NCBI GenBank assembly: GCA_902632315.1
Contig: CACPCD010000006.1
Span: 1-37,562 of the forward strand
Reading direction: 5' to 3'
DNA length: 37,562 nt
Source of the DNA: an uncultured Pelagibacteraceae bacterium
GTDB taxonomy: Bacteria > Pseudomonadota > Alphaproteobacteria > Pelagibacterales > Pelagibacteraceae
Of the stretch, positions 1 through 33,967 are shown piece by piece. The position numbers and the translations under genes were made by a program. Position 1 is the stretch's first letter. Every line of letters begins with the position of its first letter. A model generated the notes under the pieces. The model was not told the origin of the DNA. It saw only the letters and a list, made by a program, of their open reading frames with translations, and ran no database searches.

Positions 1-293
1 TCATTATAAATTGTCGGAAAATTTTCCATATCCACTATTGGGATGAAACCTCTTTTTTTTGAATATAAAAAATAATTCACAACAAAGGTAACATTTGAAA
101 ATATACCAGCACCAGGTGACCTATTTATAACTAGAAACGATTTATTTCTATTCTTTTGTCCAAAAGAATATTTTTTTAAAGGTTTTAGATTTGAAAATTT
201 ATTATTTAATTTTTTTATAGGTTTAGCTTGGTTATCAAAAAAAAAACTTTCATCGAAAAAAAAAAGTACAAATTTTCTTAATAGTCCTCTCAT
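1..293 (-). CDS. Unassigned surface-island protein, C-terminus cut off by window edge
   Basis: An open frame starts at ATG (complement of 291-293) and runs off the left edge without a stop, giving about 97 residues. Its ATG overlaps the stop of the upstream gene in an ATGA arrangement, which supports translational coupling and this start. A lysine-rich N-terminus of about 50 residues leads into a more conserved-looking block with the motifs NRSPGAG, FSNVTFVVNYF and FIPIVDMENFPTIYN. That block has the look of the start of a globular sugar- or nucleotide-binding enzyme. I recall similar wording in uncharacterised glycosyltransferase-like proteins of polysaccharide loci, but I cannot name the family. 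A glycan-modifying role is inferred from context only. Confidence 0.65.
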   Translation of the reverse strand, partial: MRGLLRKFVLFFFDESFFFDNQAKPIKKLNNKFSNLKPLKKYSFGQKNRNKSFLVINRSPGAGIFSNVTFVVNYFLYSKKRGFIPIVDMENFPTIYN

Positions 294-1495: not shown

Positions 1496-1544
1496 TTGTA
1501 CAAATTATTTAAGCATTTAATTTTTGGTCTTGAAAAATATAATT

Positions 1545-3262: not shown

Positions 3263-3319
3263 AATATTTATTTAATAATTAATTGTTTTATATGCAGCTT
3301 TTTCATATTACTAATACAC

Positions 3320-3325
3320 TATAAT
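3320..3325 (+). promoter_or_regulatory. Candidate -10 element (TATAAT) for the 3343-9969 block
   Basis: A perfect TATAAT lies 17 bases before the TTG start at 3343, in the short AT-rich gap between divergent genes. No good -35 hexamer is found at 16-18 bases. In such an AT-rich genome the match could be chance. Placement at the head of the long plus-strand polysaccharide block makes it plausible, and it would give a leader of roughly 10 bases. Confidence 0.4.
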
Positions 3326-3342
3326 ATTAAATTAAAAATACC

Positions 3343-4467: not shown

Positions 4468-4476
4468 AAAACTTAC

Positions 4477-6180
4477 ATGGTATTTGCTTTTTATTTTTCT
4501 TCATTATTGATTTTGATTTCTACTGTAGGTTTTGGATTATTAGTAAAAAAATTTTTAAATTTAAGCTTATTTGGAAACAATTTTGGATTTAGTGGTATTT
4601 TAGGTCTTTTTACACTTAGTATATTATCAAGTTATTCACATTTAGTCACCGCTCATAATTATTCTCATAATTTATTTTTAATTTTTGTAGGAATAATATC
4701 TTTTATTTTGCTTTGGGGAAAAAATAAAAACTTATTAAGTTTAGTGATTATTTTTACGATCTGTTTTATTGCAATCATTATTTCAAAAAATAATGAGGAT
4801 TTTGGATATTACCATTTACCGAATAGCATTCAATTTGCCCAACAAAAAATTCAGTTTGGACTGGGAAATTTAAATCATGGCTTTAAACATATAAGTTCAC
4901 TTTTTATGCTGATGTCACTGAATTATTTACCAAAGTTTGAATATTATCTTTTTAATTTAACAAATTTAATGTTCTATGTATTTTTCATTCATTTTTTATT
5001 TAATGAAATAAAAAAAAATAAAAAAACGAGTAATTTTACGAAAATTATTATGAGTTTGTTTTTTGTTTTGTTTTTAACAAAATTTAGCAGATTAGCAGAG
5101 TTTGGTTCTGATATTTCAGGTCAAATAATAATAACTATATTTTTATATTTAATTTTAGAGCTAATGTATAATCGTCAATTAAATTACAAAGACCAAGTCG
5201 ACTATCTTAATTTAGCAGCACTTTTAATCGTGTTTTCAATTTCTCTTAAATTTATATCAATAATTTATTTACCATTTATATTCGTAGCAGCTTATTTTTT
5301 TTTAAAAAAAAAACCAAAAATAAGTTTTTTAAAGTATCTAAATTTCAAATATCTTTTACTCATATTATTATCGATCATTATATTTATATTTTTGAATTTT
5401 ACCGCCACAGGCTGTTTAATATACCCAGTTGAAAATCTGTGCTTTTCAGAAAAAGTTTCGTGGGCACTAGATAAAAAGACTTTAGAATATTTAAATTTCC
5501 ATTATGAATTATGGTCCAAAGGTGGTCTAGGTCCAAATATTAAAGTTGAAAATCCAGAGGAATATATTTCAATGTTTAATTGGACACCTCACTGGACTAA
5601 GGTTTATTTTTTTAATAAATTTACTGATTACATTTTAGTATCTTTTTTAATTGTTGTTACTTTTTATCTGTTCTATTTTAAAAACGAAAAAAAAAAAAAT
5701 AAATTAAATGAATTAAAAAAAAAGGATTTTATTATCTTTTTAACATCTATCTTAATTTTTTTTATATGGTTCATGAACTTTCCCACTTTAAGATATGCTG
5801 GTTATATAATAGTATTTTTTCTAATTATCTTTCCATTTTGTATATTCTTTAGAAATAAGATTGATTTGAATAAGAAACAAGACCTAAAGAAATTAAGTGC
5901 AATTTTTGCGATATCTTGTTTAATATTTGTAAGTAAAAACGTTTACAGATTAGATAAAGAATTAAATATATCTTATAAAGATCATCACAATTTTAAAAAT
6001 TTCCCTTTCTTCTGGGTAAAAGATGAAAAATATGAAACTATAAATCTTAATGGACACACTCTGTATAAAGTTGAAGGTGCGTGCTGGAGCACACCATCAA
6101 CATGCGTAAGGAGTATAAGTCACTTGAAAATAATTAAAAAAGAAAATTATATAATTTATGTCAACATACACAAAAAATAG
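4477..6180 (+). CDS. Large multi-spanning membrane protein, GT-C-like or polymerase-like
   Basis: This 567-residue protein has about 11 hydrophobic segments (first at residues 3-25, then clusters through about residue 460) and a C-terminal soluble tail with cysteines in GACWSTPSTCVR. The first extracytoplasmic stretch contains NNEDFGYYHLPNSIQFAQ, with an acidic residue in loop 1 as expected of GT-C lipid-linked-sugar transferases, followed by FGLGNLNHGFKHISSLF. It may be a GT39-like or LIC_10190-type membrane protein; a Wzy-like polymerase is the alternative. No Wzx flippase or clear Wzy is seen elsewhere in the island. It overlaps the next gene by 23 bases. Function is inferred from topology and context only. 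Confidence 0.6.
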   Translation: MVFAFYFSSLLILISTVGFGLLVKKFLNLSLFGNNFGFSGILGLFTLSILSSYSHLVTAHNYSHNLFLIFVGIISFILLWGKNKNLLSLVIIFTICFIAIIISKNNEDFGYYHLPNSIQFAQQKIQFGLGNLNHGFKHISSLFMLMSLNYLPKFEYYLFNLTNLMFYVFFIHFLFNEIKKNKKTSNFTKIIMSLFFVLFLTKFSRLAEFGSDISGQIIITIFLYLILELMYNRQLNYKDQVDYLNLAALLIVFSISLKFISIIYLPFIFVAAYFFLKKKPKISFLKYLNFKYLLLILLSIIIFIFLNFTATGCLIYPVENLCFSEKVSWALDKKTLEYLNFHYELWSKGGLGPNIKVENPEEYISMFNWTPHWTKVYFFNKFTDYILVSFLIVVTFYLFYFKNEKKKNKLNELKKKDFIIFLTSILIFFIWFMNFPTLRYAGYIIVFFLIIFPFCIFFRNKIDLNKKQDLKKLSAIFAISCLIFVSKNVYRLDKELNISYKDHHNFKNFPFFWVKDEKYETINLNGHTLYKVEGACWSTPSTCVRSISHLKIIKKENYIIYVNIHKK

Positions 6181-6925
6181 CCATTTAATTTCTATAGTAA
6201 TTACTTATTATAAAAAAAAAAAATTTATAGCTAAAACTCTAAATTCAATTAAAGCACAAATTTATAAAAACTATGAAATAATATTTGTTTATGATAATTC
6301 AGATTTATCTGAAATTGATTTTGTAAAACAAAAGTTAAGTATCTTTAAAAAAAAAAAATTATTAATAAATTCAAGAAATCTTGGTGTAGCTAGATCCAGA
6401 AATAAAGCGATGCAACATTGTAAGGGAGATTACTTGGCTTTTATTGACTCAGATGATTTATGGAAAAAAAATAAATTATCTTATCAAATAAAGATTATGG
6501 AAAAGTATTCAAGTTTGTTCTCATTTACATCTTTTGATGTGATAGATGAAAGAGATAAACTACTTAAAAAAAGAATAGTTGATAATGATGGAAATTTTCC
6601 CGATCTGTTAAAGTCTAATTTTATAGGTCTAAGTACAGTTATGATACATAAAAAATTGTATAGAAAAATCATGTTCCCCAAACTTCAAACTCAAGAGGAT
6701 TTTGCTTTATGGCTTAAAATATCAAGGGAGGGTCACAAACTAAGTCACATCAAAAAATCACTTTCATCTTGGAGAAAAGTTAAGGGATCTTTATCATCTA
6801 GTATCTTTAGAAAGTTAATTGATGCCTTTTTACTTTATTATATTTACCAAAATAAAAATTTTATGTATTCAATTTATAGTGTATTAGTTTTATCATTTTA
6901 TAAACTAAAAAAAGAGATATTTTAA
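6158..6925 (+). CDS. GT2-family glycosyltransferase
   Basis: This 255-residue protein has the GT-A fold: LISIVITYYKKKKFIAKTL (residues 10-28), YEIIFVYDNS, the motif NSRNLGVARSRNKAM, and the metal-binding FIDSDDLW (DxD type, about residues 95-102). The later TQEDFALWLKISREG supplies the typical ED catalytic pair. It is an inverting transferase using a nucleotide-sugar donor. It starts inside the preceding membrane-protein gene and ends one base before gmd, so it sits in the same transcript. Two 12-base A runs (6212-6223 and 6347-6358) lie inside it. Donor unknown, though GDP-fucose made next door is possible. Confidence 0.87.
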   Translation: MSTYTKNSHLISIVITYYKKKKFIAKTLNSIKAQIYKNYEIIFVYDNSDLSEIDFVKQKLSIFKKKKLLINSRNLGVARSRNKAMQHCKGDYLAFIDSDDLWKKNKLSYQIKIMEKYSSLFSFTSFDVIDERDKLLKKRIVDNDGNFPDLLKSNFIGLSTVMIHKKLYRKIMFPKLQTQEDFALWLKISREGHKLSHIKKSLSSWRKVKGSLSSSIFRKLIDAFLLYYIYQNKNFMYSIYSVLVLSFYKLKKEIF

Positions 6926-6926
6926 A

Positions 6927-7985
6927 TTGAAAAAAAAAGCTTTGATAACAGGGGTTACAGGTCAAGATGGTTCTTATCTTGCAGAATTTTTACTCAGCAA
7001 AGGTTATATTGTTCATGGTATAAAGAGAAAATCTTCGACATTTAATACAAGTAGAATTGATCATATTTATAAAGATATTCACGTTAGATCAAATTTTTTT
7101 TTACATTATGGTGATCTAACAGACTCAAATAGTATTTTTAATGTAATAAGCAAAATTAAACCTGATGAGATTTATAATTTAGGTGCCCAAAGTCATGTCG
7201 GTCATTCTTTTGAAATCCCAGAATATACATCAGAAGCGACAGGCCTAGGTACTTTGAGAGTTTTAGAGGCAATGAGGTTTTTGAATTTAAAAAAAACAAA
7301 ATTTTACCAAGCAAGTACCTCAGAATTATTTGGAGAAAAACCAAATAGTTTGAATTCATTTAACGAAAATTCAATAATGGTTCCAAAATCACCTTATGGA
7401 GTATCAAAACTTTACTCTTATTGGATGACTAAAGTTTATAGGGAAGCATACGGTTTTTTTGCATGTAATGGAATTTTATTTAATCACGAAAGCCCTAGAA
7501 GAGGAGAAACATTTGTAACAAGAAAAATAACTATGTTCTTTGCAAAAAAAATTCTTGGTTCTAACGAAATTCTATACCTTGGTAACCTTAACGCAAAAAG
7601 AGATTGGGGTCATGCTAAGGATTACACAGAATTACAGTGGAAAATTTTACAACAGTCAGTTGCAGACGATTATGTGATAGCTACTGGCAAAACCACTAGT
7701 GTAAGAGAATTTGTGAATGAGTGTTGTAAATATTTAAGACTTAAAATTATTTGGCAAGGAAAAGGAATTAACGAAAAGGGATACATTATAAAAAATAGAA
7801 AAAAAGAATTAATCATTAAAATTGATAAGAAGTATTACAGACCTTTAGAAATTGATTATTTAAAAGGTAATCCTCAAAAAGCTTTTAAAAGATTAAAATA
7901 TAAACTCAAACACAATTTAAAAGATTTAGTAAAAGATATGCTGGACTCAGATATAATTCAGGCAAAAAAAAGTTTTAATAAGTAA
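6927..7985 (+). CDS. gmd: GDP-mannose 4,6-dehydratase
   Basis: This enzyme converts GDP-D-mannose to GDP-4-keto-6-deoxy-D-mannose, the first step to GDP-L-fucose. The 352 residues show the NADP-binding glycine motif TGVTGQDGSYLAEFLL, HGIKRKSS then NTSRIDHIY, the catalytic region QASTSELFGE, YGVSKLYSYW carrying the Y-x3-K pair, and the family signature NHESPRRGETFVTRKIT, then RDWGHAKDY. The start is TTG, one base after the GT2 stop. Its TAA stop shares its last base with the ATG of the next gene, which performs the next step, so the pair is a functional unit. Length is slightly shorter than the Escherichia coli enzyme but normal for the family. Confidence 0.95.
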   Translation: MKKKALITGVTGQDGSYLAEFLLSKGYIVHGIKRKSSTFNTSRIDHIYKDIHVRSNFFLHYGDLTDSNSIFNVISKIKPDEIYNLGAQSHVGHSFEIPEYTSEATGLGTLRVLEAMRFLNLKKTKFYQASTSELFGEKPNSLNSFNENSIMVPKSPYGVSKLYSYWMTKVYREAYGFFACNGILFNHESPRRGETFVTRKITMFFAKKILGSNEILYLGNLNAKRDWGHAKDYTELQWKILQQSVADDYVIATGKTTSVREFVNECCKYLRLKIIWQGKGINEKGYIIKNRKKELIIKIDKKYYRPLEIDYLKGNPQKAFKRLKYKLKHNLKDLVKDMLDSDIIQAKKSFNK

Positions 7986-8941
7986 TGAAAAAATCTGATA
8001 AGATTTTTATAGCTGGTCATAATGGTCTAGTGGGAAATGCATTTTTAAACCTTTTAAAAAAAAAAGGATTTAAAAATATCATTACTGTAGAGAAAAAAAA
8101 ACTAGATTTAAGAAATTCTCAAAAAGTTGAAAAGTTTTTTAAAAATAAAAAAATCGACTATATGGTTATGTCTGCAGCAAGAGCTGGTGGAATTATAGCA
8201 AATAGCCAAAATCAAAAAGATTTTTTTTTAGACAACATTGAAATCCAAAATTCTTTATTAAAACTAGCTTTGAAAAAAAGAATTAAAAGAACTATTTTTT
8301 TAGGAACATCTTGCATATATCCTAAATTTTCAAAAACACCAATTAAAGAAGAGAGTTTATTAACAGGACCTTTAGAAAAAACAAATCAATGTTATGCTAT
8401 AGCAAAAATTTCTGGGATAAAGTTATGTGAAGCTCTATATGAAGATTTTAATTTAGATTTAATTTGTCTAATGCCGACTAATGTTTATGGGCATAAAGAT
8501 AATTTTGATAAAATAAATGGTCATGTAATTCCTGCTATAATAGCCAAAATAGAAGAGGCAATTAAAAAGAATAGAAAAAAAATTAAACTATTAGGCACTG
8601 GAAAACCAATAAGAGAATTTATTCACGCTGAGGATTTAGCCTCTGCGATTCTTTTTAATTTACAAATTAGCAAAAGTAGACTTAAAAAAGTTTTTAATTC
8701 TAAGTTACCTCTAATTAATATTGGCACTAAAGACGAAATATCAATTAAACAATTGGCGTTATTGATAGCAAAATTTGCAGGTTTTAACGGTAAAATTATT
8801 TTTGATAAAACATCTCCAGATGGAACTTTCAAAAAAAATTTAGACTCTAAAATTATAAATAAATTAGGATGGTCTCACAAAATACATTTAAAATATGGAT
8901 TAAAAAAAGTTATAGAAAATAGAAGACATATTTTAAAATGA
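7985..8941 (+). CDS. fcl: GDP-L-fucose synthase (GDP-4-keto-6-deoxymannose epimerase/reductase)
   Basis: This enzyme epimerises and reduces the Gmd product to GDP-L-fucose with NADPH. The 318 residues carry the N-terminal dinucleotide motif IAGHNGLVGNAFLNLL, AARAGGI then NSQNQKDFFLDN, the serine region LGTSCIYPK, the Y-x3-K pair in CYAIAKISGIKLCEAL, and LMPTNVYGHKDNFD. The signature GKPIREFIHAEDLA is typical of Fcl/WcaG. Its start overlaps the gmd stop by one base and its stop overlaps the start of the phosphotransferase gene by 4 bases. Together with gmd it predicts fucose, or another sugar from the same intermediate, in the surface glycan. Confidence 0.94.
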   Translation: MKKSDKIFIAGHNGLVGNAFLNLLKKKGFKNIITVEKKKLDLRNSQKVEKFFKNKKIDYMVMSAARAGGIIANSQNQKDFFLDNIEIQNSLLKLALKKRIKRTIFLGTSCIYPKFSKTPIKEESLLTGPLEKTNQCYAIAKISGIKLCEALYEDFNLDLICLMPTNVYGHKDNFDKINGHVIPAIIAKIEEAIKKNRKKIKLLGTGKPIREFIHAEDLASAILFNLQISKSRLKKVFNSKLPLINIGTKDEISIKQLALLIAKFAGFNGKIIFDKTSPDGTFKKNLDSKIINKLGWSHKIHLKYGLKKVIENRRHILK

Positions 8942-9969
8942 ATTTAGAATTAATTTTAATAATATTTATTTTCTATGCTTATTTTTTATTTTTTAAAAAA
9001 TTTTCTTTGTTAAATGAAAATAGTAATATTTCACATCATAAAAGTTTTATAAAAAATAAAAAAAAACCAATTTTAATAGGTGGTATTTTTATAATCACTA
9101 TAATTATTTTATTTTCCAATTTTATATTTTTTCCAGTAAAATTATCACTTCTCCTAATTTTTTTATTAGGACTTTCCTCTGACAAAAATATTTTTCCTAA
9201 TCCTAAAATAAGGCTAATTGTTCAATTATTAATTATAATGTACGTCATAAGTTTCTATGATCTTAAAATCTTGGACTTGAGAATTGAATTTGCAAACGAT
9301 ATTTTATCAAATTCTTTATTTAATTACCTTTTTACAATTTTTTGCATTGCTATACTTATTAATGGTTCAAATTTTATTGATGGACTTAACGGTCTATTGA
9401 TTGGTTATATTATTTTAGTTTTAGTTTCACTACTTTTCGTGACAGCAAATTTTTCAGGATTATCTCTAATTGACAAAGAATTTATTATTATTCTTTTATT
9501 TTCATTATTAATACTATTTTTTATGAATCTTAGAGGATTTGTATTTTTGGGAGATAGTGGAAGTTATCTTTTATCTTTTTATTTGGGCATTTATTTAATA
9601 ATTTTTTTCATGAATAATCAATTCGTATCACCTTATTATATAGCAGCTATTCTTTGGTATCCAAGTTTCGAAAATTTTTTTTCTTTTTTGAGAAGAATAA
9701 ATTCAAAAAAAAGTGTTTCATCTGCAGACAATCGTCATTTACATCAATTACTTTATGCATATATATTAAATTCAAAACGTTTTAATAGCTATTCTAAATA
9801 TCCTAATAGTTACTGTGCAGTATTAATCCTAGTTTTTAATATTCCGGGAATTTTTTTTTCAAGCATGATTCCATTTAATACTGGAGGACAAATCCTGATA
9901 ATCTTGATAAATGTTTCTTTATATTTATTTTTTTATTTTCTACTTTCTAAAAAATTTACTTTGAAATAG
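8938..9969 (+). CDS. WecA/MraY-family undecaprenyl-phosphate sugar-1-phosphate transferase
   Basis: This polytopic enzyme would start glycan assembly by moving a (N-acetyl)hexosamine-1-phosphate from a UDP-sugar to undecaprenyl phosphate. The 343 residues contain about 9-10 membrane segments and the family's cytoplasmic motifs: LGLSSDKNIFPNPKIRL (about residues 77-93), NGSNFIDGLNGL (about 141-152), FLGDSGSYLLSFYLG (about 203-217), and the C-terminal ADNRHLHQLLY with the conserved histidines. This fits the WecA/TagO branch rather than MraY. The start overlaps fcl by 4 bases. The last 30 bases overlap the end of the convergent GT2 gene. Confidence 0.88.
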   Translation: MNLELILIIFIFYAYFLFFKKFSLLNENSNISHHKSFIKNKKKPILIGGIFIITIIILFSNFIFFPVKLSLLLIFLLGLSSDKNIFPNPKIRLIVQLLIIMYVISFYDLKILDLRIEFANDILSNSLFNYLFTIFCIAILINGSNFIDGLNGLLIGYIILVLVSLLFVTANFSGLSLIDKEFIIILLFSLLILFFMNLRGFVFLGDSGSYLLSFYLGIYLIIFFMNNQFVSPYYIAAILWYPSFENFFSFLRRINSKKSVSSADNRHLHQLLYAYILNSKRFNSYSKYPNSYCAVLILVFNIPGIFFSSMIPFNTGGQILIILINVSLYLFFYFLLSKKFTLK

Positions 9970-10617
9970 TTTTATCATTTCAATCAAAATCAAAAAACCA
10001 TCTTTAAAAGCATTTACTTTTTTTCTACCGGCAATTCTTTTAAATTCATAGGATGGTATACATTCGTAATTCATATTATGAATTTGCATTTTTATTGGGA
10101 GTTCAACACAGAATCTAAAATCATCAGATTCAATTTTAAGCTTTTTAAAAGAGTCGGTTTTACCCATTAAGTACGTATAAAGTATATCGCTTATTTTTAA
10201 TGAAAACATGATATTACCTAACTTAGAAAAAAATTTATTTCCTAAAAAAGTAATTATTGTGTCATCATCACTTCCACCTGGCTTCTCATAACGCGTTGTA
10301 TAGACAAAGTCGTTTGTTTTAATTAATTCATACATCCTAGTAAGATCTTGATGTTGAAATGATCCATCAGCATTAAATATACAAAAATACTTTGTGTCAC
10401 AAAAATTTATAGCCTCTCTTAATGAATTTCCATACCCCTCTCTAGACTGAAAAAATAATTTTATCTTATCATTTCGAATAATTGAATTAATTGTATCTAA
10501 ATCATTTTTTCTTAATGAAACGATTATCTTTAAATCTAGACTTAAAAGTGATTTAAGAACAACTGGTAAGGACTCACTCTCGTTTTTAGCAGGAATTATT
10601 AATGTCAGATCATTCAT
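9940..10617 (-). CDS. GT2-family glycosyltransferase (DPM1-like)
   Basis: This 225-residue protein begins with the GT-A motif LTLIIPAKNESESLPVVLKS and contains GYGNSLREAI and FNADGSFQHQDL, where NADGS holds the DxD-like metal site. The layout resembles dolichol-phosphate-mannose-synthase-like transferases that charge a polyprenyl phosphate, without a C-terminal membrane domain. It is the only confident minus-strand gene between 3343 and 13313, and it overlaps its convergent neighbour by 30 bases. That orientation suggests separate insertion or rearrangement in the island. It could supply a lipid-linked sugar to the GT-C-like protein at 4477, which is speculation. Confidence 0.84.
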   Translation of the reverse strand: MNDLTLIIPAKNESESLPVVLKSLLSLDLKIIVSLRKNDLDTINSIIRNDKIKLFFQSREGYGNSLREAINFCDTKYFCIFNADGSFQHQDLTRMYELIKTNDFVYTTRYEKPGGSDDDTIITFLGNKFFSKLGNIMFSLKISDILYTYLMGKTDSFKKLKIESDDFRFCVELPIKMQIHNMNYECIPSYEFKRIAGRKKVNAFKDGFLILIEMIKLFQSKFFRK

Positions 10618-10627
10618 TATTGATGTT

Positions 10628-10756
10628 TTATAAATAAAGAATTGACATTTTTTTTAGTTTTTTTTTCTGAGCTTTTTCCATGTAGTCTTTATAAGCAAAA
10701 ATTGAAGAGAATGAACTGATATCTTCTCTAGCAACCCTAACGCTATGATCAAACAT
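10628..10756 (-). pseudogene. Probable 3' remnant of a lost gene, or a 42-residue small ORF
   Basis: The 274-base gap 10618-10891 holds a minus-strand frame with an ATG at 10754-10756, a stop at 10628-10630 and 42 codons. The peptide begins MFDHSVRVAREDISSF and ends KKLKKMSILYL. Its composition is protein-like, with a helical basic C-terminus, and is richer in G and C than the flanking spacer. In-frame sequence continues about 8 codons upstream of the ATG before a stop, and no Shine-Dalgarno sequence is present, which fits a decayed 3' end better than an intact gene. The rest of the gap (10757-10891) is AT-rich with nothing I can support. Confidence 0.4.
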
Positions 10757-10891
10757 AAAAAAATTCTGAAATTTGTTAAATTATTAAGCCTTTCAAAAAA
10801 TGTATCCATAAAATTAACGAAAAATATTGAAAAAAATTATTAATATATTTGTAAATTTATTTGAAAGCATTAAAAAAAGTCTTAAGTATTC

Positions 10892-11605
10892 ATGCAAGAT
10901 TTAATTAGACTCATACTAAATATATTTGATTTTTTTACTCAACGAAAAATATTAAAAGCGATTTCAACAAGAATAAAAGAAAATAAACTTAAAATTCTTT
11001 TGGATGTTGGTTCTCATAAAGGTGAGTATATTTCAAGTTTAAATTCAAGGTTTTTTATTAATGAGACTTTTGGTTTTGAACCAAATCCAGATATATATGA
11101 TATTTTAAATAAAAGATTTAATAGTCAAAAGATAAAATTGTTTAATTACGGCATATCTCATAATAGTGGAATAATAAGTTTAAATAAGAACATAGAGACA
11201 TCTTCCTCATCTATAAATGAGCTAAATTCAAAATCTAAATATTACAAAAAAAAATATTTTTTATTGAATTTTCTTAGTTCAAAAAAAATAACTTCAAAAA
11301 TAGATGTTAAAGTAAAAAGATTAGACGAATTTTTAAATGAGTATAATATTAACGAAGTAGATTTATTAAAAATAGATACTGAAGGGTTTGAATATAAAGT
11401 TTTACAAAGTCTAGGCAGTGATATATCTAAAATAAAGATAATTCATTTTGAACATCATTTTGATGATATGATTATTAAAAATTATAAATTATCAGATATT
11501 CATAATTTACTTATAAAAAATGAATTTGAGAAATATTTTAAAATAAAAATGAAATTTAGAAAATCTTTTGAATATGTTTACATAAATAAAAAATTTAAGA
11601 CATGA
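10892..11605 (+). CDS. FkbM-family SAM-dependent methyltransferase
   Basis: This 237-residue protein matches the FkbM O-methyltransferase family. It has the SAM motif LLDVGSHKGEYISSL (about residues 35-49), FGFEPNPDIYDIL, the strand VKVKRLDEFL, and the signature VDLLKIDTEGFEYKVLQSL, which is diagnostic for the family, followed by IIHFEHHFDD. The likely job is methylating a hydroxyl on a sugar of the surface glycan, which caps or decorates it. It opens the last plus-strand segment of the island and overlaps the following GT2 gene by 4 bases. Confidence 0.88.
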   Translation: MQDLIRLILNIFDFFTQRKILKAISTRIKENKLKILLDVGSHKGEYISSLNSRFFINETFGFEPNPDIYDILNKRFNSQKIKLFNYGISHNSGIISLNKNIETSSSSINELNSKSKYYKKKYFLLNFLSSKKITSKIDVKVKRLDEFLNEYNINEVDLLKIDTEGFEYKVLQSLGSDISKIKIIHFEHHFDDMIIKNYKLSDIHNLLIKNEFEKYFKIKMKFRKSFEYVYINKKFKT

Positions 11606-12384
11606 GAAAAAATTTAGTATCAATATTGATAACTAACTATAATAAAGCAAAATTTCTAAAAAAAAATATTGAGCACTGTCTCAATCAAACATACAAAAAT
11701 ATAGAAATTTTAGTATTTGATGATTCCTCAACAGACACATCTCATAAAATTCTAAAACAATTTAGAAATAAAAAAATTTCGGTAATTTACAATAAAAAAA
11801 AAAAATATAACTCTGGACCTCTAAATCAGCTCTATGGCATTAATAATTTGTTTAAAAAATCAAAAGGTAAAATTATTTTTTTATTGGACAGTGACGATTT
11901 TTTTTTGAAAAAAAAGGTAAATTATATTTCAAAATTGTTTGAAAATAATAAGAATTTAAATTTTGTACAAGACACCGCTTTTATAAACAAGCAAAAAAAA
12001 AAAATAGAGCTAAACAAGAAAGATCACTCTGTTTCAATATGGCCGAGTTTTAATCCTACCAGCTGTATTGCTATTAAAAAAGAATTTCTCAAATATTTTT
12101 TTGAATTTTCAGAAATGAATAAATTTCCAAATTTAGAAATAGATGCAAGATTATGCATCTATGCTTTCTTAAAAAATGAATTTAAGATAATTAATAAATC
12201 TCTTACAGTTTATAATCACGATCATTTTGGAATAACATCAAACTACAGAAAATTTAGTAAAAATTGGTGGAAAAAAAGATATGAAGCTTATAATTATATG
12301 AAAATTTTAATGAAAAAAATGAAAATTAAATTTAAACCTAGTGTAGATTATTATGTTACAAAAGTATTTAATATTTTCATATGA
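11602..12384 (+). CDS. GT2-family glycosyltransferase
   Basis: This 260-residue GT-A protein has SILITNYNKAKFLKKNIEHC (residues 8-27), the motif QTYKNIEILVFDDSSTDTS, and the metal-binding IIFLLDSDDFFL (DSDD, about residues 92-103). A later acidic segment, FPNLEIDARLC, probably contains the catalytic region. It should add one sugar from a nucleotide donor. The start overlaps the FkbM gene and a 38-base gap separates it from the epimerase. Two A runs (11794-11805 and 11993-12004) encode KKKK. Donor specificity cannot be assigned. Confidence 0.86.
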   Translation: MRKNLVSILITNYNKAKFLKKNIEHCLNQTYKNIEILVFDDSSTDTSHKILKQFRNKKISVIYNKKKKYNSGPLNQLYGINNLFKKSKGKIIFLLDSDDFFLKKKVNYISKLFENNKNLNFVQDTAFINKQKKKIELNKKDHSVSIWPSFNPTSCIAIKKEFLKYFFEFSEMNKFPNLEIDARLCIYAFLKNEFKIINKSLTVYNHDHFGITSNYRKFSKNWWKKRYEAYNYMKILMKKMKIKFKPSVDYYVTKVFNIFI

Positions 12385-12422
12385 TGGAATTAATTTAATA
12401 AATACAATCAAAGAAACTTAAT

Positions 12423-13313
12423 TTGAAAGAGATAATTGTTATAACTGGTGGAGCAGGGTTTGTTGGTTCTAATTTAATTAGTTTTTTTTTAGAAAAAACT
12501 AAATTAAAAGTGATAAGTATTGATAATTATTCCTCAGGTTTTACAAAAAATCATATTAAGCATAAAAATATCTTATATTTGAAGGGGCATACTAAAAATA
12601 TTTCTTCTTTATTAAAAAAATATAAAAAAAATATAAACACAATTTTTCATTTTGGAGAATTTTCTAGAATTTATCAAAGTTTTAATTATATAGATGATTG
12701 TATTCAGTCTAATACAATTGGTACAAATGCAGTCTTTGAATTTTGTCTAAAAAATAAAGTCAAATTAATTTATTCAGCCACTTCTGCATCATTAGGTAAT
12801 AAAGGAAAAGATAAGAATTTATCACCATATGCATTTACAAAGTCTAAAAATATTGAATTGTTAGAAAATTTAAAGAAATGGTATAATTTAAAATATGAGG
12901 TTATTTTTTTTTACAATGTGTATGGGCCAAATCAAATAGTTGATGGGAAAATGGCTACAGTTATAGGTATTTTTGAGAATCATTATAAAAAAAATAAACC
13001 ACTTCCTGTAGTAAGACCAGGAACCCAATCTAGACGTTTTACGCATATTCAAGACACTATTGAGATATGTTTCAAAGCCTGGAAAAAAAATAGATGTAAT
13101 TACTACAGTATTTCAAATAAAGAAAGTTATACAATCTTAGATGTCGCTAAGCTTTTTAAGTCTAAAATTAAGTATCTACCAGAGAGAAAAGGCGAAAGAT
13201 ACGCTTCAGCGTTAACAAGTTTATCGTTATCAAATAAGATTTATAAAAACTTTGGGAAAATAAAGCTTAAGGATTACATAGAAGAATTTTTAGAAAAAAA
13301 TAAGAAAAAATAA
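12423..13313 (+). CDS. NAD-dependent nucleotide-sugar epimerase/dehydratase (extended SDR)
   Basis: This 296-residue protein is an extended short-chain dehydrogenase acting on a nucleotide sugar. It shows TGGAGFVGSNLISFFLEK (NAD-binding TGxxGxxG, residues 8-25), ISIDNYSSG, the active-site strand IYSATSASLGNKG, the Y-x3-K pair in SPYAFTKSK, then FYNVYGPNQ and RRFTHIQDT. The usual GalE motif RGDVRD is replaced by LKGHTKN. It may be a UDP-glucose 4-epimerase relative or a related epimerase; which sugar it acts on is not clear. The start is TTG at 12423. It is the last island gene before the 5S rRNA. Confidence 0.82.
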   Translation: MKEIIVITGGAGFVGSNLISFFLEKTKLKVISIDNYSSGFTKNHIKHKNILYLKGHTKNISSLLKKYKKNINTIFHFGEFSRIYQSFNYIDDCIQSNTIGTNAVFEFCLKNKVKLIYSATSASLGNKGKDKNLSPYAFTKSKNIELLENLKKWYNLKYEVIFFYNVYGPNQIVDGKMATVIGIFENHYKKNKPLPVVRPGTQSRRFTHIQDTIEICFKAWKKNRCNYYSISNKESYTILDVAKLFKSKIKYLPERKGERYASALTSLSLSNKIYKNFGKIKLKDYIEEFLEKNKKK

Positions 13314-13368: not shown

Positions 13369-13484
13369 CGCCGGTGATTATTGCGAAAGGGTCATACCCG
13401 ATCCCATTCCGAACTCGGAAGTCAAGCCTTTCTGCGCCGATGGTACTTTGTCTTAAGATACGGGAGAGTAGGTCATTGCCGGCA
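13369..13484 (+). rRNA. rrf: 5S ribosomal RNA
   Basis: The sequence has the conserved 5S core, including CGATCCCATTCCGAACTCGG and the 3' segment GGGAGAGTAGGTCATTGCCG. The ends pair as helix I: GCCGGTGAT (13370-13378) with ATTGCCGGC (13475-13483), a 9-pair stem with two G-U pairs. The length of about 116 bases is normal. It is GC-richer than its surroundings, as expected of rRNA. No 16S, 23S or rRNA-linked tRNA is beside it; its left neighbour is a polysaccharide gene. No terminator separates it from rpmJ, which starts 9 bases downstream. Confidence 0.97.
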
Positions 13485-13619: not shown

Positions 13620-13625
13620 TTTTTA

Positions 13626-13736
13626 ATGGACAACGAAAATCATAAAAATACTTGGATTAAATTTACAAAATTTGTACTGTGGGGAACTGTCGCTGTTGTT
13701 TTAGTTTTAGTTCTTATGGCTGCATTCTTACTATAA
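13626..13736 (+). CDS. aa3-type cytochrome c oxidase subunit IV-like small membrane protein
   Basis: This 36-residue protein begins MDNENHKNTWIKFTKFVLWG and ends in a single hydrophobic helix, TVAVVLVLVLMAAFLL. A short polar N-terminus with HxxTW-type residues before one transmembrane helix matches the bacterial aa3-type oxidase subunit IV family, which in alphaproteobacteria is often found next to transhydrogenase genes. It would be an accessory subunit of the terminal oxidase in the inner membrane. It sits 6 bases after rpmJ and 9 bases before pntAA. Being so short it is easily missed; a generic small membrane protein is the alternative. Confidence 0.75.
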   Translation: MDNENHKNTWIKFTKFVLWGTVAVVLVLVLMAAFLL

Positions 13737-27523: not shown

Positions 27524-28069
27524 GTGAAAAAATCAGAAATAAGAAAAAAAATTATAAAAAAAAGAAGAGCGAATTACTCAAATAAATTTAAGATTGATCT
27601 AAAATTTATTTTAAAAATTTTAAAAAAAAAAAAATTGCAAAACAAAGTTGTTGGTGGTTATTATCCTCATAATTTTGAAGTAGATGATATTGAAATATTA
27701 AAAAGATTAGAAAAAAAAAATTTTGAAATTTGTTTGCCGAAAATAAAAAAAAACTATCAAATGGATTTTTTTAAATGGTCAACTAAAGATCCACTTATTA
27801 TTAATAGAATGGGAATTCCTGAACCAACATCAAATAATTTGAAATATCCTGATATTTTATTGGTTCCGTTGGTAGCTTTTGATAAGAACTTAAATAGAAT
27901 TGGATATGGTGGTGGATTTTATGACAGATATATTAAAAGATTAAAATTGATAAAAGATATTATTACAATTGGAATAGCTTTCTCTTTTCAAAAAATAAAT
28001 AAAATCTATGTCGATAGAAATGATATAAAAATGGATTTCATAATAACAGAAAAAAATAAATTTAAATGA
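27524..28069 (+). CDS. fau: 5-formyltetrahydrofolate cyclo-ligase
   Basis: This 181-residue enzyme uses ATP to convert 5-formyl-THF to methenyl-THF, returning a storage or inhibitory folate to the one-carbon pool. It has the N-terminal basic helix KKSEIRKKIIKKRRANYS, GGYYPHNFEVDD, the segment INRMGIPEPTS, PDILLVPLVAFDKNLNRIGY and the ATP-site signature GYGGGFYDRYI (about residues 128-138). The start is GTG at 27524. A 13-base A run (27622-27634) encodes KKKK. It overlaps the next gene by 4 bases. The zapA-fau order is common in proteobacteria. Confidence 0.91.
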   Translation: MKKSEIRKKIIKKRRANYSNKFKIDLKFILKILKKKKLQNKVVGGYYPHNFEVDDIEILKRLEKKNFEICLPKIKKNYQMDFFKWSTKDPLIINRMGIPEPTSNNLKYPDILLVPLVAFDKNLNRIGYGGGFYDRYIKRLKLIKDIITIGIAFSFQKINKIYVDRNDIKMDFIITEKNKFK

Positions 28070-28869
28070 AAATATTATTTTTAGGAGATGTTGTAGGGTC
28101 ATCTGGTACTTCAATGATTATTGAGAATTTATCAGATCAAATTAAAAATAATGAAATTGATTTCGTAATAGTTAATGCTGAAAATTCTGCTGATGCGGGT
28201 GTTGGGCTTACCCAAGAAATATGTGAAAATTTTTTTAAATGTGGTGTAGACGTAATAACAACTGGCAATCACGTTTGGGATCAAAAAGATATTATGAGTT
28301 TTATTGATAAAGAAAATCGACTATTAAGACCAAAAAATCTTTTTGAACCAGCTCCTGGAAAAGGTTTTGAAATATTTACATCAAAACAAAATTTTAAAAT
28401 AGGTGTTCTTAACTTAATGGGAAACGTTTTTATGAAAAAATGTGAGGATGTATTTGATACTTCGAAAAAATTTATTGAAAAATATTCTTTAAAAAAAGAT
28501 TATGATTTTCTAGTAATCGATTTTCATGGAGAAATAACAAGTGAAAAAAATGCTATCGGTCATTATTTTGATGGACTGGCCACTTTAGTGGTTGGAACTC
28601 ACACTCATATTCCAACAAATGATGCACATATATTAAAAGGTGGAACCGCTTACCAAACAGATGCAGGTATGTGTGGAGATTATGACTCTGTTATAGGAAT
28701 GAATAAGGAAAATTCTATAAATAGATTTTTAAAAAAAGACTCAGTCAAACATTTTCCAGCCACAGGTAAAGCTACTATGTGTGGGGTAATTGTTGACTGT
28801 AATACTGAAACAGGTTTAGCAAAAAAGGTAGATAGTTTTATCTTTGGAGATCAATTGAAAAATATATAA
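28066..28869 (+). CDS. YmdB-like metallophosphoesterase (TIGR00282 family)
   Basis: This 267-residue protein belongs to the calcineurin-like YmdB group, studied in Bacillus as a 2',3'-cyclic nucleotide phosphodiesterase. Metal ligands are visible: MKILFLGDVVGSSG (D8), VNAENSADAGVGL (E39, N40), TTGNHVWDQ (N68, H69), VIDFHGE and VGTHTHIPTND (HxH). Ends match the family: AYQTDAGMCGDYDSVIGMNK and FPATGKATMCGVIVD. It is soluble and complete. The ATG overlaps fau by 4 bases and yebC follows after 4 bases. The physiological substrate here is unknown. Confidence 0.9.
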   Translation: MKILFLGDVVGSSGTSMIIENLSDQIKNNEIDFVIVNAENSADAGVGLTQEICENFFKCGVDVITTGNHVWDQKDIMSFIDKENRLLRPKNLFEPAPGKGFEIFTSKQNFKIGVLNLMGNVFMKKCEDVFDTSKKFIEKYSLKKDYDFLVIDFHGEITSEKNAIGHYFDGLATLVVGTHTHIPTNDAHILKGGTAYQTDAGMCGDYDSVIGMNKENSINRFLKKDSVKHFPATGKATMCGVIVDCNTETGLAKKVDSFIFGDQLKNI

Positions 28870-28873: not shown

Positions 28874-29596
28874 ATGGCAGGACATTCTCATTGGGCAGGA
28901 ATTAAACATAAAAAAGGAAAAGCCGATAAACAGAGATCAAAAATTTTTTCAAAACTATCTAAAGAAATTACTGTAGCTGCTAAGTTAGGTGATAAGGATC
29001 CTGCGATTAACCCAAGGTTGAGATCAGCAATACAGGCTGCAAGAAGTGCCAATATGCCAAAAGACAATATTGAAAGAGCTATAAACAAATCATCAATAAA
29101 CTCTGAATTGAGTTTTGAAAATCTAAGATATGAAGGTTTTGGTCCTGAAAAAGTAGCAGTGATTGTAGAGGCTTTAACTGATAACAAAAACAGGACTGCC
29201 TCCAACATTAGAACTATATTTCAGAAGGCAGGGGGTAGTCTTGGCACACAAGGATCTGCGTCTCATAATTTTACTCAACTTGGTGTCATTAAAATTGACA
29301 AGAAGGTTATTTCTGATGAGCATATTTTTGAGTTAGCAACAGAGGCTGGTGCAGATGAATGTAAATCTAATAATGAATTTCACGAAATTCACTGTCCTAT
29401 AAATGAAATTTATAATATTAAAAAATTGCTAGAAAAGGAAATAGATAAATTTATATCTACTAAAATTGAGTGGCGACCCTTAAATAGTGTAGAAATTTCT
29501 AAAGAAAGAAATAATGATCTAATTAATTTTTTTGAGTCATTAGAGGAGGATGACGATGTACAACATATTTTTACAAATGCGGAATTTAAAAAATAA
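28874..29596 (+). CDS. yebC: YebC/PmpR family protein (TACO1-like)
   Basis: This 240-residue protein starts with the fixed family sequence MAGHSHWAGIKHKKGKADKQ, then KIFSKLSKEITVAAKLG, and contains NMPKDNIERAINK and NIRTIFQKAGGSLGTQGSAS. The family was first described as transcriptional regulators; more recent work links it to translation of proline-rich stretches, which would fit the efp gene in this window. In many proteobacteria yebC is followed by ruvCAB. Here a RuvC-like gene follows after 3 bases. Complete and typical. Confidence 0.95.
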   Translation: MAGHSHWAGIKHKKGKADKQRSKIFSKLSKEITVAAKLGDKDPAINPRLRSAIQAARSANMPKDNIERAINKSSINSELSFENLRYEGFGPEKVAVIVEALTDNKNRTASNIRTIFQKAGGSLGTQGSASHNFTQLGVIKIDKKVISDEHIFELATEAGADECKSNNEFHEIHCPINEIYNIKKLLEKEIDKFISTKIEWRPLNSVEISKERNNDLINFFESLEEDDDVQHIFTNAEFKK

Positions 29597-29599
29597 ATT

Positions 29600-30094
29600 A
29601 TGTTAATAATTGGAATAGATCCCGGTTTATCTGGCTCAATTTGTTTTATGAGAGATGGCAAAATCCTTGATGTGATAGAAATGCCAACAATGACTGAAGG
29701 AAAAAAAAATAAAAGACAGGTAAATGGTTCTCAAATTTACAATGAAATATTAAAAAGAATAGATAAAATTGAAATTTCTGAGGTCAGAGCAGTTATTGAG
29801 CAAGTTTCGGCAATGCCAGGACAGGGTGTAACTAGCATGTTTAATTTTGGTCAGTCATTTGGGATTCTTAAGGGTATTTGTTCAGCTATGCAAATACCTG
29901 TTTATTTTGTGAGACCTGCAAAATGGAAAAAATATTTTAATCTTATCAATTCAGAAAAAGACGCAAGCCGGACAAGAGCAATAGAAATATTTCCCTATTT
30001 TTCAGCACAATTGTCAAAAAAAAAAGATTCTAATAAGGCAGATGCAATTTTAATAGCTAGTTTTTATTATGAAACTCACCAAAATGAGGATTAA
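29600..30094 (+). CDS. RuvC-like Holliday-junction resolvase, non-canonical (phage-like) type
   Basis: This 164-residue RNase H-fold nuclease has LIIGIDPGLSGSICFM (catalytic D7), AVIEQVSAMPGQGVTSMFNF (E67) and C-terminal KKDSNKADAILIAS (D143 and D148 candidates). The segments KRQVNGSQIY and FVRPAKWKKYF match the RuvC-like proteins common in phages and some alphaproteobacteria rather than classic RuvC. It should cut branched DNA junctions. It sits 3 bases after yebC, the place of ruvC in related genomes, but ruvA, ruvB and ybgC are absent and tolQ follows. Its stop lies in a palindrome. Confidence 0.8.
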   Translation: MLIIGIDPGLSGSICFMRDGKILDVIEMPTMTEGKKNKRQVNGSQIYNEILKRIDKIEISEVRAVIEQVSAMPGQGVTSMFNFGQSFGILKGICSAMQIPVYFVRPAKWKKYFNLINSEKDASRTRAIEIFPYFSAQLSKKKDSNKADAILIASFYYETHQNED

Positions 30095-30107: not shown

Positions 30108-30145
30108 AGACAAAATCATGACACATTTAAGTGAAAGAAGACAGC

Positions 30146-30824: not shown

Positions 30825-31241
30825 ATGGCATTTAAATTAAATCGTTCATCAAAAGAGCCAATGAGTGAAATTAATGTAACGCCATTTGTGGATGTGATGT
30901 TAGTTTTATTAATTATTTTTATGGTCACAGCCCCTCTATTAACTGTTGGAGTTCAAGTTGACTTACCAGAAAGTTCTGCTGACTCTCTTCCTGAGGAGAC
31001 CGAGCCTTTAACACTTACAATTAATTCTAAAGGAGAAATTTTTATTCAAGAATCTAAAGTTGAATATGAAAAAATTATTGCAAAAGTGCTTGCAGTGTCA
31101 AAAAATAGAACAGATACAAGGATTTATGTAAGAGGAGATAAAACAATTAATTATGGAAGGGTTTTGGAAATCATGGGTCTACTGTCTGGTTCAGGTTTCA
31201 CAAAGGTTGCATTAATATCTGAGCCCTATAAGGAGAGGTAA
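30825..31241 (+). CDS. tolR: Tol-Pal system protein TolR (ExbD family)
   Basis: This 138-residue stator partner of TolQ has a short cytoplasmic N-terminus, one membrane helix with INVTPFVDVMLVLLIIFMVT (residues 16-35) and a periplasmic domain. Aspartate 23 in FVDVMLVLL is the proton-path residue of the family. VQVDLPESSA follows the helix, and IYVRGDKTINYGRVLEIMGL is in the periplasmic fold. Its last codons contain AAGGAGAGG (31230-31238), which may serve as a Shine-Dalgarno sequence for tolA. Confidence 0.95.
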   Translation: MAFKLNRSSKEPMSEINVTPFVDVMLVLLIIFMVTAPLLTVGVQVDLPESSADSLPEETEPLTLTINSKGEIFIQESKVEYEKIIAKVLAVSKNRTDTRIYVRGDKTINYGRVLEIMGLLSGSGFTKVALISEPYKER

Positions 31242-31247
31242 GTAGCT

Positions 31248-32057
31248 TTGAATAAGAGCCTTATAATTTCCTCCATCTTACATGTTGTTTTAATAACAAT
31301 TACAGCAATTAGTTTGCCATTTTTAGCAAAAAAACCTTTAGACCTCCCCCCTATAGTTTCAATAGAACTGATTCAAATAACTGATAAAACAAATATACCA
31401 TTCGCCCCGAAAGCAAAAAAAATAATTGAAAAAATTAAAAAAGAAGAAAAAAAATTAGTTTCTGAGCAAGCACCGCCAAAAAAAGTAAAAAAGATTAAAC
31501 CTGATGCAGTTCCAATGCCAGATGACAAATTAAAAAAAGTTGAAAAAATTAAAGAGGATAAACAAAATCCAGAAAAAATTGATGATGAAGTAAAACAGGT
31601 CTCAGAGTTTGAAAAAAAGGAATTGTTTGATCCAAATAACATAGCAGCCTTAATTGATAAATCTAAAATTGAAAGTGCCGAGAGCATAAAAAAAACAAAT
31701 AAAATTACTCAGGATCAACAAAGAAGTGTTGAAAATGCCGGACTTTCACTTAGTGAAGAGGATGCTTTAAAGGCTCAAATTTTTGGATGTTGGAGTATTC
31801 CATTGGGTCTACCTTATAATGAAGATTTATTAGTTAGGATAAAACTTGAATTAAATCCAGATGGAACAGTATCTCAATCAGAAATATTAGATCATGCAAG
31901 AATGAATAGACCAGGGCAAGGATTCTATAAGGTATTAGCTGAGAGTGCACTTAGAGCTGTAAAATTATGTCAACCACTGAGAGTTCCCACAACTGGCTAT
32001 GAAAGATGGAAAGAATTGCAATTAAATTTTGATGCAAGAGAGATGTTAGAAGGGTAA
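31248..32057 (+). CDS. tolA: Tol-Pal system protein TolA (short form)
   Basis: TolA spans the periplasm from TolQR to Pal. The 269 residues show an N-terminal membrane helix (SLIISSILHVVLITITAISL), a lysine/glutamate/proline-rich linker (about residues 55-125), and a C-terminal TonB-like domain from about residue 175 with IFGCWSIPLGLPYNEDLLVR, then LELNPDGTVSQSEILDHA. It is shorter than the roughly 420-residue enterobacterial protein. The start is TTG at 31248. Identity rests on these features and its place between tolR and tolB. Confidence 0.88.
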   Translation: MNKSLIISSILHVVLITITAISLPFLAKKPLDLPPIVSIELIQITDKTNIPFAPKAKKIIEKIKKEEKKLVSEQAPPKKVKKIKPDAVPMPDDKLKKVEKIKEDKQNPEKIDDEVKQVSEFEKKELFDPNNIAALIDKSKIESAESIKKTNKITQDQQRSVENAGLSLSEEDALKAQIFGCWSIPLGLPYNEDLLVRIKLELNPDGTVSQSEILDHARMNRPGQGFYKVLAESALRAVKLCQPLRVPTTGYERWKELQLNFDAREMLEG

Positions 32058-32065
32058 TATAAATT

Positions 32066-33406
32066 ATGTTAAGAATTTTAATTATTTGTTTTGTAATCCT
32101 TTTGCCTAATAAACTATTAGCCTTAATAGAGGTTGATATTACAAGAGGTAATCTAAACCCTTTACCCATAGCAGTATCACCTTTATCAATTGATGAAAAT
32201 TCTAGAAAAAATTTTGAAAAAATTTTAAATAAAAAAGATATTGGCTCTGAAATTGCAAAAGTTGTAGAAAACAATTTAAAAACCTCCGGACTTTTTAATC
32301 CATTAAATAAAGATGCATTTCTTCAAGCACCAGAAATCGCAAATTTAAAACCAAGATTTGAAGATTGGAATTTAATTAAAGCTCAGGCTTTAATAACTGG
32401 TAAAGTAAATTTTGTTGAAGAAAAATTGAGAGTAGAATTTCGATTATGGGATGTGCTTGCAGGAAAAGAGATGATGGCTTTAGCTTTTACGACTGTCCCA
32501 AATAATTGGCGCAGAGTAGGCCATATTATTACTGATAAAGTTTATGAAAGGCTAACAGGAGAAAAAGGATATTTCGATACTAGAATTATTTATGTTGCAG
32601 AGGAAGGTCCAAAAACTCGAAGAATTAAAAAATTAGCAATCATGGATCAAGACGGTGCTAATAATAAATTTTTAACTCTTGGAAATGAATTAGTTTTAAC
32701 ACCAAGATTTAATCCAACAAGCCAAATGGTAACTTACTTATCTTATTTTAAAAATTTACCAAGAGTATACTTGCTAGATATTGAAACTGGCATGCAAGAA
32801 GTTGTAGGTGATTTTCCTGGGATGACTTTCGCACCAAGATTTTCGCCAGATGGGAAGAAAATAATTATGAGTTTTGCAAAAGATGGTAATTCAGATATTT
32901 ATACAATGGATTTAGAAAATAGAATTGTTGAAAAAATAACAAACCATCCATCTATTGACACATCCCCATCTTATTCTCCAAATGGTAAGTACATATGCTT
33001 TAACTCTGATAGAAGTGGTTACCAGCAAATTTATATTATGAAAAGTGATGGAACAGGCGTTAAAAGAATTTCTTTTGGAAAAGGATTATATGGCACACCA
33101 GTTTGGTCTCCAAGAGGTGATTTAATTGCTTTTACAAAATTACATAAGGGCAAGTTTTATATTGGTGTGATGAGAACAGATGGAAGTGGGGAAAGATTGT
33201 TAACAGAAAATTTTTATCAAGAAGCTCCATCTTGGTCCCCAAATGGAAGGGTCTTGATTTTTTATAGAGAGACTGAAACAGATGATAAAGGAGAAGGTTT
33301 TTCTGCAAAATTATGGTCTATAGATTTAACAGGGTATAATGAGAGGCTAGTTAATACACCAACAGATGCCTCAGACCCATCATGGTCATCTTTATTAAGT
33401 AATTAG
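32066..33406 (+). CDS. tolB: Tol-Pal system beta-propeller protein TolB
   Basis: This 446-residue periplasmic protein binds Pal and TolA. A signal peptide covers about residues 1-19 ([19 protein letters not shown]). The N-terminal domain is TolB-type (about 20-160), and the C-terminal part is a six-bladed propeller with repeats such as [52 protein letters not shown] and [11 protein letters not shown]. It follows tolA after 8 bases, and 84 bases separate it from the pal start. Confidence 0.95.
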
Positions 33407-33490
33407 CCAATATTATCTTGATTTTTTATCTTGAAACTTCTATTTAGTTGTGAAAAAGTTATTAAAAGAAATATTGATCAAGGAGCAATA

Positions 33491-33967
33491 ATGAAATTAA
33501 ACAAAATTCTAAAAAACGCCTTTTTGATAGTTGTTGCATGTGTGGCGCTATCGGCTTGTGCTACGTCAAAGAAATCAGGACAAATGCAAGGTGATGTATA
33601 CACTGGAACAGACACGGTCGAGTATTTAGCTTCTGGTGTTCCAGATAGAGTTTTCTTTGCAACAAATGAGTCAGTTTTAACAACTGCTTCAAGAGAAACT
33701 TTAAGAAAACAAGCTGCATGGTTGAGAAAAAATTCTAATATAACAATTGTGTTAGAGGGTCATGCTGATGAAAGAGGTACAAGAGAATATAACTTAGCAC
33801 TTGGCGAAAGAAGAGCTAACGCTGCTAAAGATTACTTAATGACTTATGGAATTTCCTCAGACAGAATTTCAGTTTTAAGTTACGGTAAAGAGAGACCTGT
33901 TGATTCAGGATCAAATCCTCTGGCTTGGTCAAAAAACAGAAGATCAGTTACAGTAAAAGCCAACTAA
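33491..33967 (+). CDS. pal: Peptidoglycan-associated lipoprotein Pal
   Basis: This outer-membrane lipoprotein of 158 residues holds on to peptidoglycan. The start ATG 33491 is fixed by AAGGAGC (33480-33486) at good spacing and by the signal peptide that follows; a longer frame from TTG 33431 would bury the signal. The lipobox is ALSAC, with lipidated cysteine at residue 23. The OmpA-like domain has VFFATNESVL and IVLEGHADERGTREYNLALG (about residues 87-106), then RANAAKDYL and SYGKERPVD. It is followed by a strong terminator, so it ends the tol-pal transcript. Confidence 0.95.
   Translation: MKLNKILKNAFLIVVACVALSACATSKKSGQMQGDVYTGTDTVEYLASGVPDRVFFATNESVLTTASRETLRKQAAWLRKNSNITIVLEGHADERGTREYNLALGERRANAAKDYLMTYGISSDRISVLSYGKERPVDSGSNPLAWSKNRRSVTVKAN

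Follow-up and report, generated by a model that had tools for sequence, protein, structure and literature searches.

The window, by which we mean the whole 37,562-nucleotide stretch of Pelagibacteraceae DNA analysed here, carries between yebC and tolQ a predicted gene for a MOC1-like Holliday junction resolvase of the RuvC superfamily (29600..30094, + strand, 164 aa, ATG start). The gene very probably encodes the housekeeping junction resolvase of the Pelagibacteraceae, a stand-alone, RuvAB-independent, MOC1-like enzyme of viral type that occupies the ruvC slot after the loss of ruvC, ruvA and ruvB. We also lean, with less assurance, towards a broader proposal in which this slot was refilled on three or more occasions, each time by a different virus-type resolvase: the MOC1-like protein of the Pelagibacteraceae, a PD-(D/E)XK nuclease of their sister family and the MOC1-like protein of another alphaproteobacterium, G263. 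The outcome would be a RuvAB-free pathway of RecG and a viral resolvase, similar to that of chloroplasts (MOC1 and no RuvAB), in a group reported to be highly recombining.

The resolvase ORF starts 3 nt past the stop codon of yebC (28874..29596), which is preceded by a ymdB-like gene (28066..28869). Downstream, tolQ (TolQ/ExbB type) begins at 30131 and ends at 30820. It is followed in the same direction by genes at 30825..33967 that we take, from gene order, to be tolR-tolA-tolB-pal. All of these genes lie on the + strand, and the two flanks of the slot, yebC and tolQ, are supported by Pfam. The source assembly comprises 916,519 bases in 41 contigs and is 82.6% complete. In this genome, the region between the resolvase gene and tolQ contains no ruvA, ruvB or ybgC. 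The initial annotation described the locus as a yebC-ruvC-ruvA-ruvB-ybgC-tolQ order reduced to yebC, a RuvC-like gene and tolQ. The reduced slot is indeed present, but no single genome examined here has the full order. A part of it, ruvC-ruvA-ruvB-tolQ, is found in the alphaproteobacterium G417, where yebC and ybgC do not adjoin it, and E. coli has yebC-ruvC-ruvA-ruvB with yebB and yobI inserted between ruvC and ruvA. No relics of RuvA or RuvB were detected in the slot in 13 loci searched by tblastn (E 0.1). The number of promoter- and terminator-like sites in the resolvase gene region corresponds to chance. The gene itself contains a hairpin of 10 pairs with a T-rich stretch behind it (29872-29899), in a region where terminator-like sites are at this chance number.

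The protein falls outside the canonical RuvC family. Pfam RuvC (PF02075) gave no match up to E 1, and the NCBIfam RuvC model NF000711 reached 16.8 bits, where its cut-off is 163. The YqgF/RuvX family models of Pfam and NCBIfam also gave no match up to E 1. PHROG 1770 (Holliday junction resolvase) matched residues 1-159 at E 2.5e-36 with 126.1 bits, in agreement with the original description of a non-classical RuvC-like nuclease. In databases, the gene is likely annotated already as a RuvC or MOC1 domain; one phage relative carries cd22992 MOC1 in its own record.

Among solved structures, plant MOC1 chains are the only solid matches of the protein. A PDB search with the single sequence retrieved plant MOC1 at E 8.9e-14 (residues 3-155), while a profile of 32 rows of relatives reached 2.2e-28 for NtMOC1 and 0.12 for the best RuvC. 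The AlphaFold model of the resolvase (mean pLDDT 90.8, pTM 0.88) found MOC1 6jrf as its best Foldseek match (6.3e-13). In VIA-align it superposes on the MOC1-junction complex 6kvo with Z 23.1 and an rmsd of 1.7 over 159 residues, and MOC1 entries take the first nine places by Z (21.2-23.1). E. coli RuvC (1hjr) ranks after MOC1, with Z 16.9 and an rmsd of 2.6 over 149 residues, and other RNase H-fold proteins (TEFM, IscB, RuvX) reach Z 14 and below. When the model was compared with a viral structure library, the best matches stood at 2e-10, several of them named junction resolvases or RuvC. By sequence and predicted structure, the nearest characterised relative of the protein is chloroplast MOC1, which the initial annotation had not named, and not RuvC.

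Four acidic residues align with the catalytic tetrad of NtMOC1 and form a predicted D-E-D-E/D site. D7 (codon 29618..29620, + strand as for all codons given here) aligns with D116, E67 (29798..29800) with E175, D143 (30026..30028) with D253 and D148 (30041..30043) with E258. The conservation of D7, E67 and C-terminal aspartates had been noted before, and the alignment now places the latter at positions 143 and 148. The phage-type motif AMPGQGVTSMFNFG proposed at the same time was also found in the protein; AMPGQG is common to it and several PHROG 1770-type phage resolvases. Position 143 is not always Asp: it is Gly in 6 of the 32 rows of alignment A4, and the 20 rows of the wider alignment A2 contain 14 Asp, 5 Gly and 1 His. 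Among the 10 phage rows in the alignment, several have no acid at this position. Position 148 is Glu in 3/32 rows of A4 and 5/20 rows of A2.

The predicted base-recognition loop, M72-P-G-Q75 (29813..29824, + strand), differs from that of the plant enzyme. Its first and last positions correspond to Y180 and D183 of NtMOC1, which are described as opening the junction and reading cytosine, respectively (PMC7078210). M72 and Q75 are invariant in 32/32 rows of A4 and are kept in 16/20 and 15/20 rows of A2. As these residues replace the Y/F and D of plant-type MOC1, the protein is not plant-type in this loop, and the cut of MOC1 after cytosine need not apply.

We found the MOC1-like gene in 87 of the 147 genomes sampled from the order, namely in 87/94 genomes of the family of the window (f1) and 0/53 of the other family (f2). 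The titles of the best named profile matches suggest that f1 corresponds to the Pelagibacteraceae. The best 80 of 555 profile matches in public genomes are all titled Pelagibacteraceae or Pelagibacterales (SAR11) and are up to 96% identical. The seven misses in f1 look like assembly gaps: G040, G126, G129, G140 and G113 are without yebC too, and in G123 and G097 yebC is cut at the contig end. The 87 matches include G142, where only 63 residues are present at the beginning of a contig, and G137, where frames are broken across the operon. In the latter (locus L053) tolR, tolB and the resolvase gene are split, probably by assembly indels rather than decay.

The setting of the gene is highly conserved. 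In the 80 named SAR11 loci it is followed by tolQ in 80/80 and preceded by yebC in 79/80 (the remaining locus is at the end of its contig), and so the arrangement is not due to chance. An assembly error or contamination at the slot is ruled out by the adjoining tolQ in all 80 loci. In some of them the gene overlaps yebC by one base. The yebC-gene-tolQ order is also kept throughout 20 loci from six genera, with frames broken only in G137. Three genera have room for a ybgC-type gene before tolQ. In L042, L043 and L054 the gap between the resolvase gene and tolQ is similar in size to such a gene, and the gene of L041 matches thioesterase models. A ybgC-type gene at this place fits the order ruvC-ruvA-ruvB-ybgC-tolQ minus ruvA and ruvB. 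The dN/dS ratio of the window gene against five relatives is 0.04-0.08, and the median is 0.069 over 41 pairs (of 66 among 12 loci, with pS between 0.05 and 0.55). These values point to strong purifying selection on the resolvase gene.

Canonical RuvABC was not detected in the order. No RuvC exceeded the family or full-length cut-off in 147 genomes, and the sole PF02075 match is the MOC1-like gene itself in G134, with 20.4 of 22.2 bits. RuvB exceeded its full-length cut-off in 0/147 genomes (at most the best 14 candidates per genome were scored) and RuvA in 0/97, so that neither partner of a canonical RuvC was found. Among 14 control genomes, the same models were passed for RuvC in 8, RuvB in 10 and RuvA in 10. 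The genome of the window, at 82.6% completeness, has no match to RuvC or RuvA_N. RuvB_N, a short model, gave three matches, the two over its cut-off being ClpX and DnaX and the one below it FtsH; full-length RuvB gave four weak matches, none over the cut-off. The weak RuvA matches examined in the order (three of 8) are of RecR type: L260 is RecR according to NCBIfam, L261 has the RecR HhH domain and L262 contains a Toprim domain only. The initial annotation left it open whether ruvAB had been lost or moved, and suggested searching the genome for ruvA, ruvB and a classical ruvC. With none over the full-length cut-offs, ruvAB looks lost, and its relocation is rejected, as the RuvB_N matches in this genome and the RuvA matches examined are other proteins.

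RecG is widely retained. At E <= 1e-130 it was found in 127/147 genomes (88/94 in f1 and 39/53 in f2), mostly at full length, and was not found at this threshold in the remaining 20. No genome passes the curated cut-off, the best score being 656.2 of 659.4 bits. In the 82.6% complete genome of the window RecG was not found (best match 1.7e-6).

The sister family carries a different nuclease at the same position. We searched for yebC in 14 of the 53 f2 genomes and read the 10 loci in which it was found (L062, L063, L065-L072). In 10/10, a gene of ~125 aa without sequence kinship to the MOC1-like gene lies between yebC and tolQ (for example L062:2318-2698), and a MOC1-like gene is present in none of these slots. 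Two of the proteins were scanned and match PF24608 PDDEXK_15 (phage putative PDDEXK endonuclease) with 32.7 and 31.2 bits, above the cut-off of 27. They stay below the cut-off of archaeal Hjc (PF01870; 14.5 and 12.8 of 21.1 bits). PHROG 244 matches both, at 2e-20 and 8e-20; this family is labelled RusA-like, in contrast to the PDDEXK_15 assignment by Pfam. The columns invariant in five f2 rows include E14, D50, E60 and K62, which fits a PD-(D/E)XK site.

The only match of the f2 nuclease in phage records is a gene of Roseobacter phage CRP-810, annotated as a Holliday junction resolvase and 53% identical. Relatives are encoded by 109 viral-contig stretches, with up to 58% identity among the best 80 of the 109, and the profile gave a single weak match (E 2.6e-4) in 385 genomes of the class. 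One slot thus holds two unrelated viral-type nucleases, both with phage relatives annotated as junction resolvases, which is the strongest indirect evidence for the function of the MOC1-like protein. It is improbable, in our estimate, that the protein instead serves another purpose, such as an anti-phage role or competence, while YqgF/RuvX resolves the junctions, or RecG removes them with no resolvase involved. The slot itself, the strong purifying selection, the retention across the family and the second resolvase-type nuclease of the sister family all speak against such a use. It would draw some support from YqgF, which is described as nearly universal in bacteria (PMC1193525), and from a table of the SAR11 core that lists a putative Holliday junction resolvase without more detail (PMC3686209), an entry that may be either protein.

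Outside SAR11, the relatives of the MOC1-like gene are mainly phage genes. Phage records contain 124 relatives at E 0.01, with up to 42.8% identity over 92% of the length, and viral contigs contain at least 579 stretches when searched with the profile; a viral scan with the single window protein found 4. The profile gave 11 matches in the 385 genomes of the class, consisting of five SAR11, four other strong and two weak ones. The weak matches are G417, a canonical RuvC according to NCBIfam, and G229, which resembles RuvC in sequence and tree position. The phylum set, 398 genomes, gave 8 matches (two SAR11, three strong, three weak). The strong non-SAR11 copies are those of G702, G455, G805, G542, G339, G390 and G263. 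In the first four, phage-type genes (for integrase, terminase, primase or helicase) are found no more than about 5 kb from the copy. G263, a genome of 1.2 Mb from another alphaproteobacterial family, has its copy (L355:4986-5483) in the order yebC-gene-ybgC-tolQ-tolR, with ybgC, tolQ and tolR identified from their translations.

For the trees, a 75% identity filter reduced 80 viral loci to 22. The canonical RuvC rows, used as outgroup, comprise G417, assigned by the RuvC model, E. coli, assigned by annotation, and four others assigned by sequence and tree place. In a second tree the long rows L086, L087, L088 and L096 were omitted, L353 supplied the same gene in place of L097, and 55 leading residues were trimmed from L264. 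The six canonical RuvCs form a separate clade (100/100) apart from all MOC1-like rows. This answers the tree test called for initially, placing the window protein outside canonical RuvC with the rooting open. The SAR11 sequences group together (99/95), and their clade is joined to three viral rows (93/96, not starred) within the MOC1-like group. The viral rows were picked by likeness to the window protein, and their nesting with SAR11 is therefore partly a sampling effect. A single clade of MOC1 and SAR11 was weakly rejected (p 0.039). AU tests did not reject a split with SAR11 and canonical RuvC together on one side (p 0.594 and p 0.431 in two runs), and hence the tree does not settle the root or the direction of transfer.

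This last result, together with the position in the ruvC slot, would suit an old, fast-evolving RuvC inherited vertically in the Alphaproteobacteria, with ruvAB lost later and no viral donor: the distant outgroup joins the SAR11 branch without significant loss. Such a history, raised initially as an old alphaproteobacterial variant, is nevertheless highly improbable. The protein matches MOC1 and phage resolvases, the canonical RuvCs keep to their own clade, and strong matches occur in only 9/385 genomes of the class, 5 of these being SAR11. The data support the other initial suggestion, a replacement in place by a viral-type resolvase. Given the distant outgroup, the unrejected SAR11/RuvC side and the choice of viral rows by likeness, we base the virus-to-bacterium direction on the distribution of the gene and not on a rooted tree.

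The number of entries into the slot is a separate question. A single MOC1-like gene may have entered before the order and the G263 lineage split, the sister family later swapping to a PD-(D/E)XK nuclease; the function would be the same and the history different. Two findings speak for such an early entry: neither family of the order has RuvB or RuvC, and G263, although from another family, has its MOC1-like gene in a yebC-X-ybgC-tolQ setting. The G263 copy, however, groups with that of G455 (96/92), which has an integrase and a phage-type primase nearby, and a single clade of G263 and SAR11 is rejected at p 0.023, though the G263 row is a long branch. We regard the single entry as possible but rather doubtful, and prefer repeated refilling of the slot.

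In both trees, plant MOC1 joins a protein of Microcystis phage Mae-Yong1326-1 (L084:1477-2055; 85/79 and 95/81). This grouping, in which the two plant rows stand on a long branch, hints that the chloroplast resolvase may have come from a cyanophage.

We infer junction cleavage, a dimeric enzyme, a partnership with RecG and a virus origin. In the proposed mechanism, RuvABC would have been lost and the RuvC slot then refilled by virus-type resolvases working with RecG. RecA would produce a four-way junction, to which a dimer would bind. Each subunit would open the crossover with the loop that follows E67 (M72...Q75) and nick one strand via a metal site formed by D7, E67, D143 and D148. The junction would be moved by RecG rather than RuvAB.

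Of the known systems, MOC1 (6kvn/6kvo, 6jrf, 8kfr) is similar in its fold (Z 23.1), its domain length and its four catalytic acids. It differs by an identity of only about 27% and by Y180/D183 in place of M72/Q75, and the SAR11 gene is a bacterial chromosomal one in the ruvC slot. The PHROG 1770 phage resolvases share the family match (2.5e-36), up to 42.8% identity and, in several cases, AMPGQG, but they reside in phage genomes and several rows have no acid at the D143 position. The resolvases of Salmonella phage epsilon15 and Pseudomonas phage FBPa19 are presumably members of this family. E. coli RuvC, which acts within RuvABC, has the superfamily fold (Z 16.9) and a slot adjoining yebC, whereas the SAR11 protein is under every RuvC model cut-off and, in the order, neither RuvA nor RuvB passes its cut-off to serve as a partner. 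RusA, from an E. coli prophage, has a fold unrelated to that of the SAR11 resolvase. It is comparable as a phage-type resolvase that is able to replace RuvABC together with RecG; it is not normally expressed in E. coli (PMC5055574), while in SAR11 the gene is a fixed occupant of the ruvC slot. In Firmicutes, RecU is another non-orthologous resolvase in place of RuvC (PMC1193525). Firmicutes keep RuvAB, in contrast to SAR11, and according to the same source such replacement, which leaves RuvAB in place, is why RuvAB is more widespread than RuvC. RuvAB is described there as a near-universal core of bacterial recombination. Plant organelles are without RuvAB, and chloroplasts use MOC1 (PMC6981420); SAR11 would therefore have reached a similar set independently.

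The SAR11 order is very abundant in the ocean. If our reading is true, a free-living cell can entrust the late step of recombination to a viral enzyme, with a whole order living without RuvABC. This bears on why SAR11 recombines so promiscuously, and it makes a phage origin of chloroplast MOC1 a testable idea. A 2025 study of SAR11 recombination reports that RecBCD, the RecF pathway and MutSL are absent; the string "ruv" does not occur in the main text of this source (PMC12374537). In the literature searched, with subscription papers and preprints outside its scope, we found no account of a loss of RuvABC, or of its replacement by a MOC1-like or Hjc-like enzyme, in SAR11. Displacement by a non-orthologous resolvase is known as such. 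What appears new here is its coupling with the loss of RuvAB and its repetition in the same slot.

Two other features of the window lie upstream of the resolvase locus. ORFs that by their sequence resemble glycosyltransferase, epimerase and methyltransferase genes form a run over 290-13313, which ends before a 5S rRNA at 13370-13484; the run may be a variable region for surface polysaccharide. An Rfam pntA RNA motif is located at 13622-13683 (61.9 bits, gathering 54), 62 nt before an ORF at 13746 that we take to encode the transhydrogenase alpha subunit.
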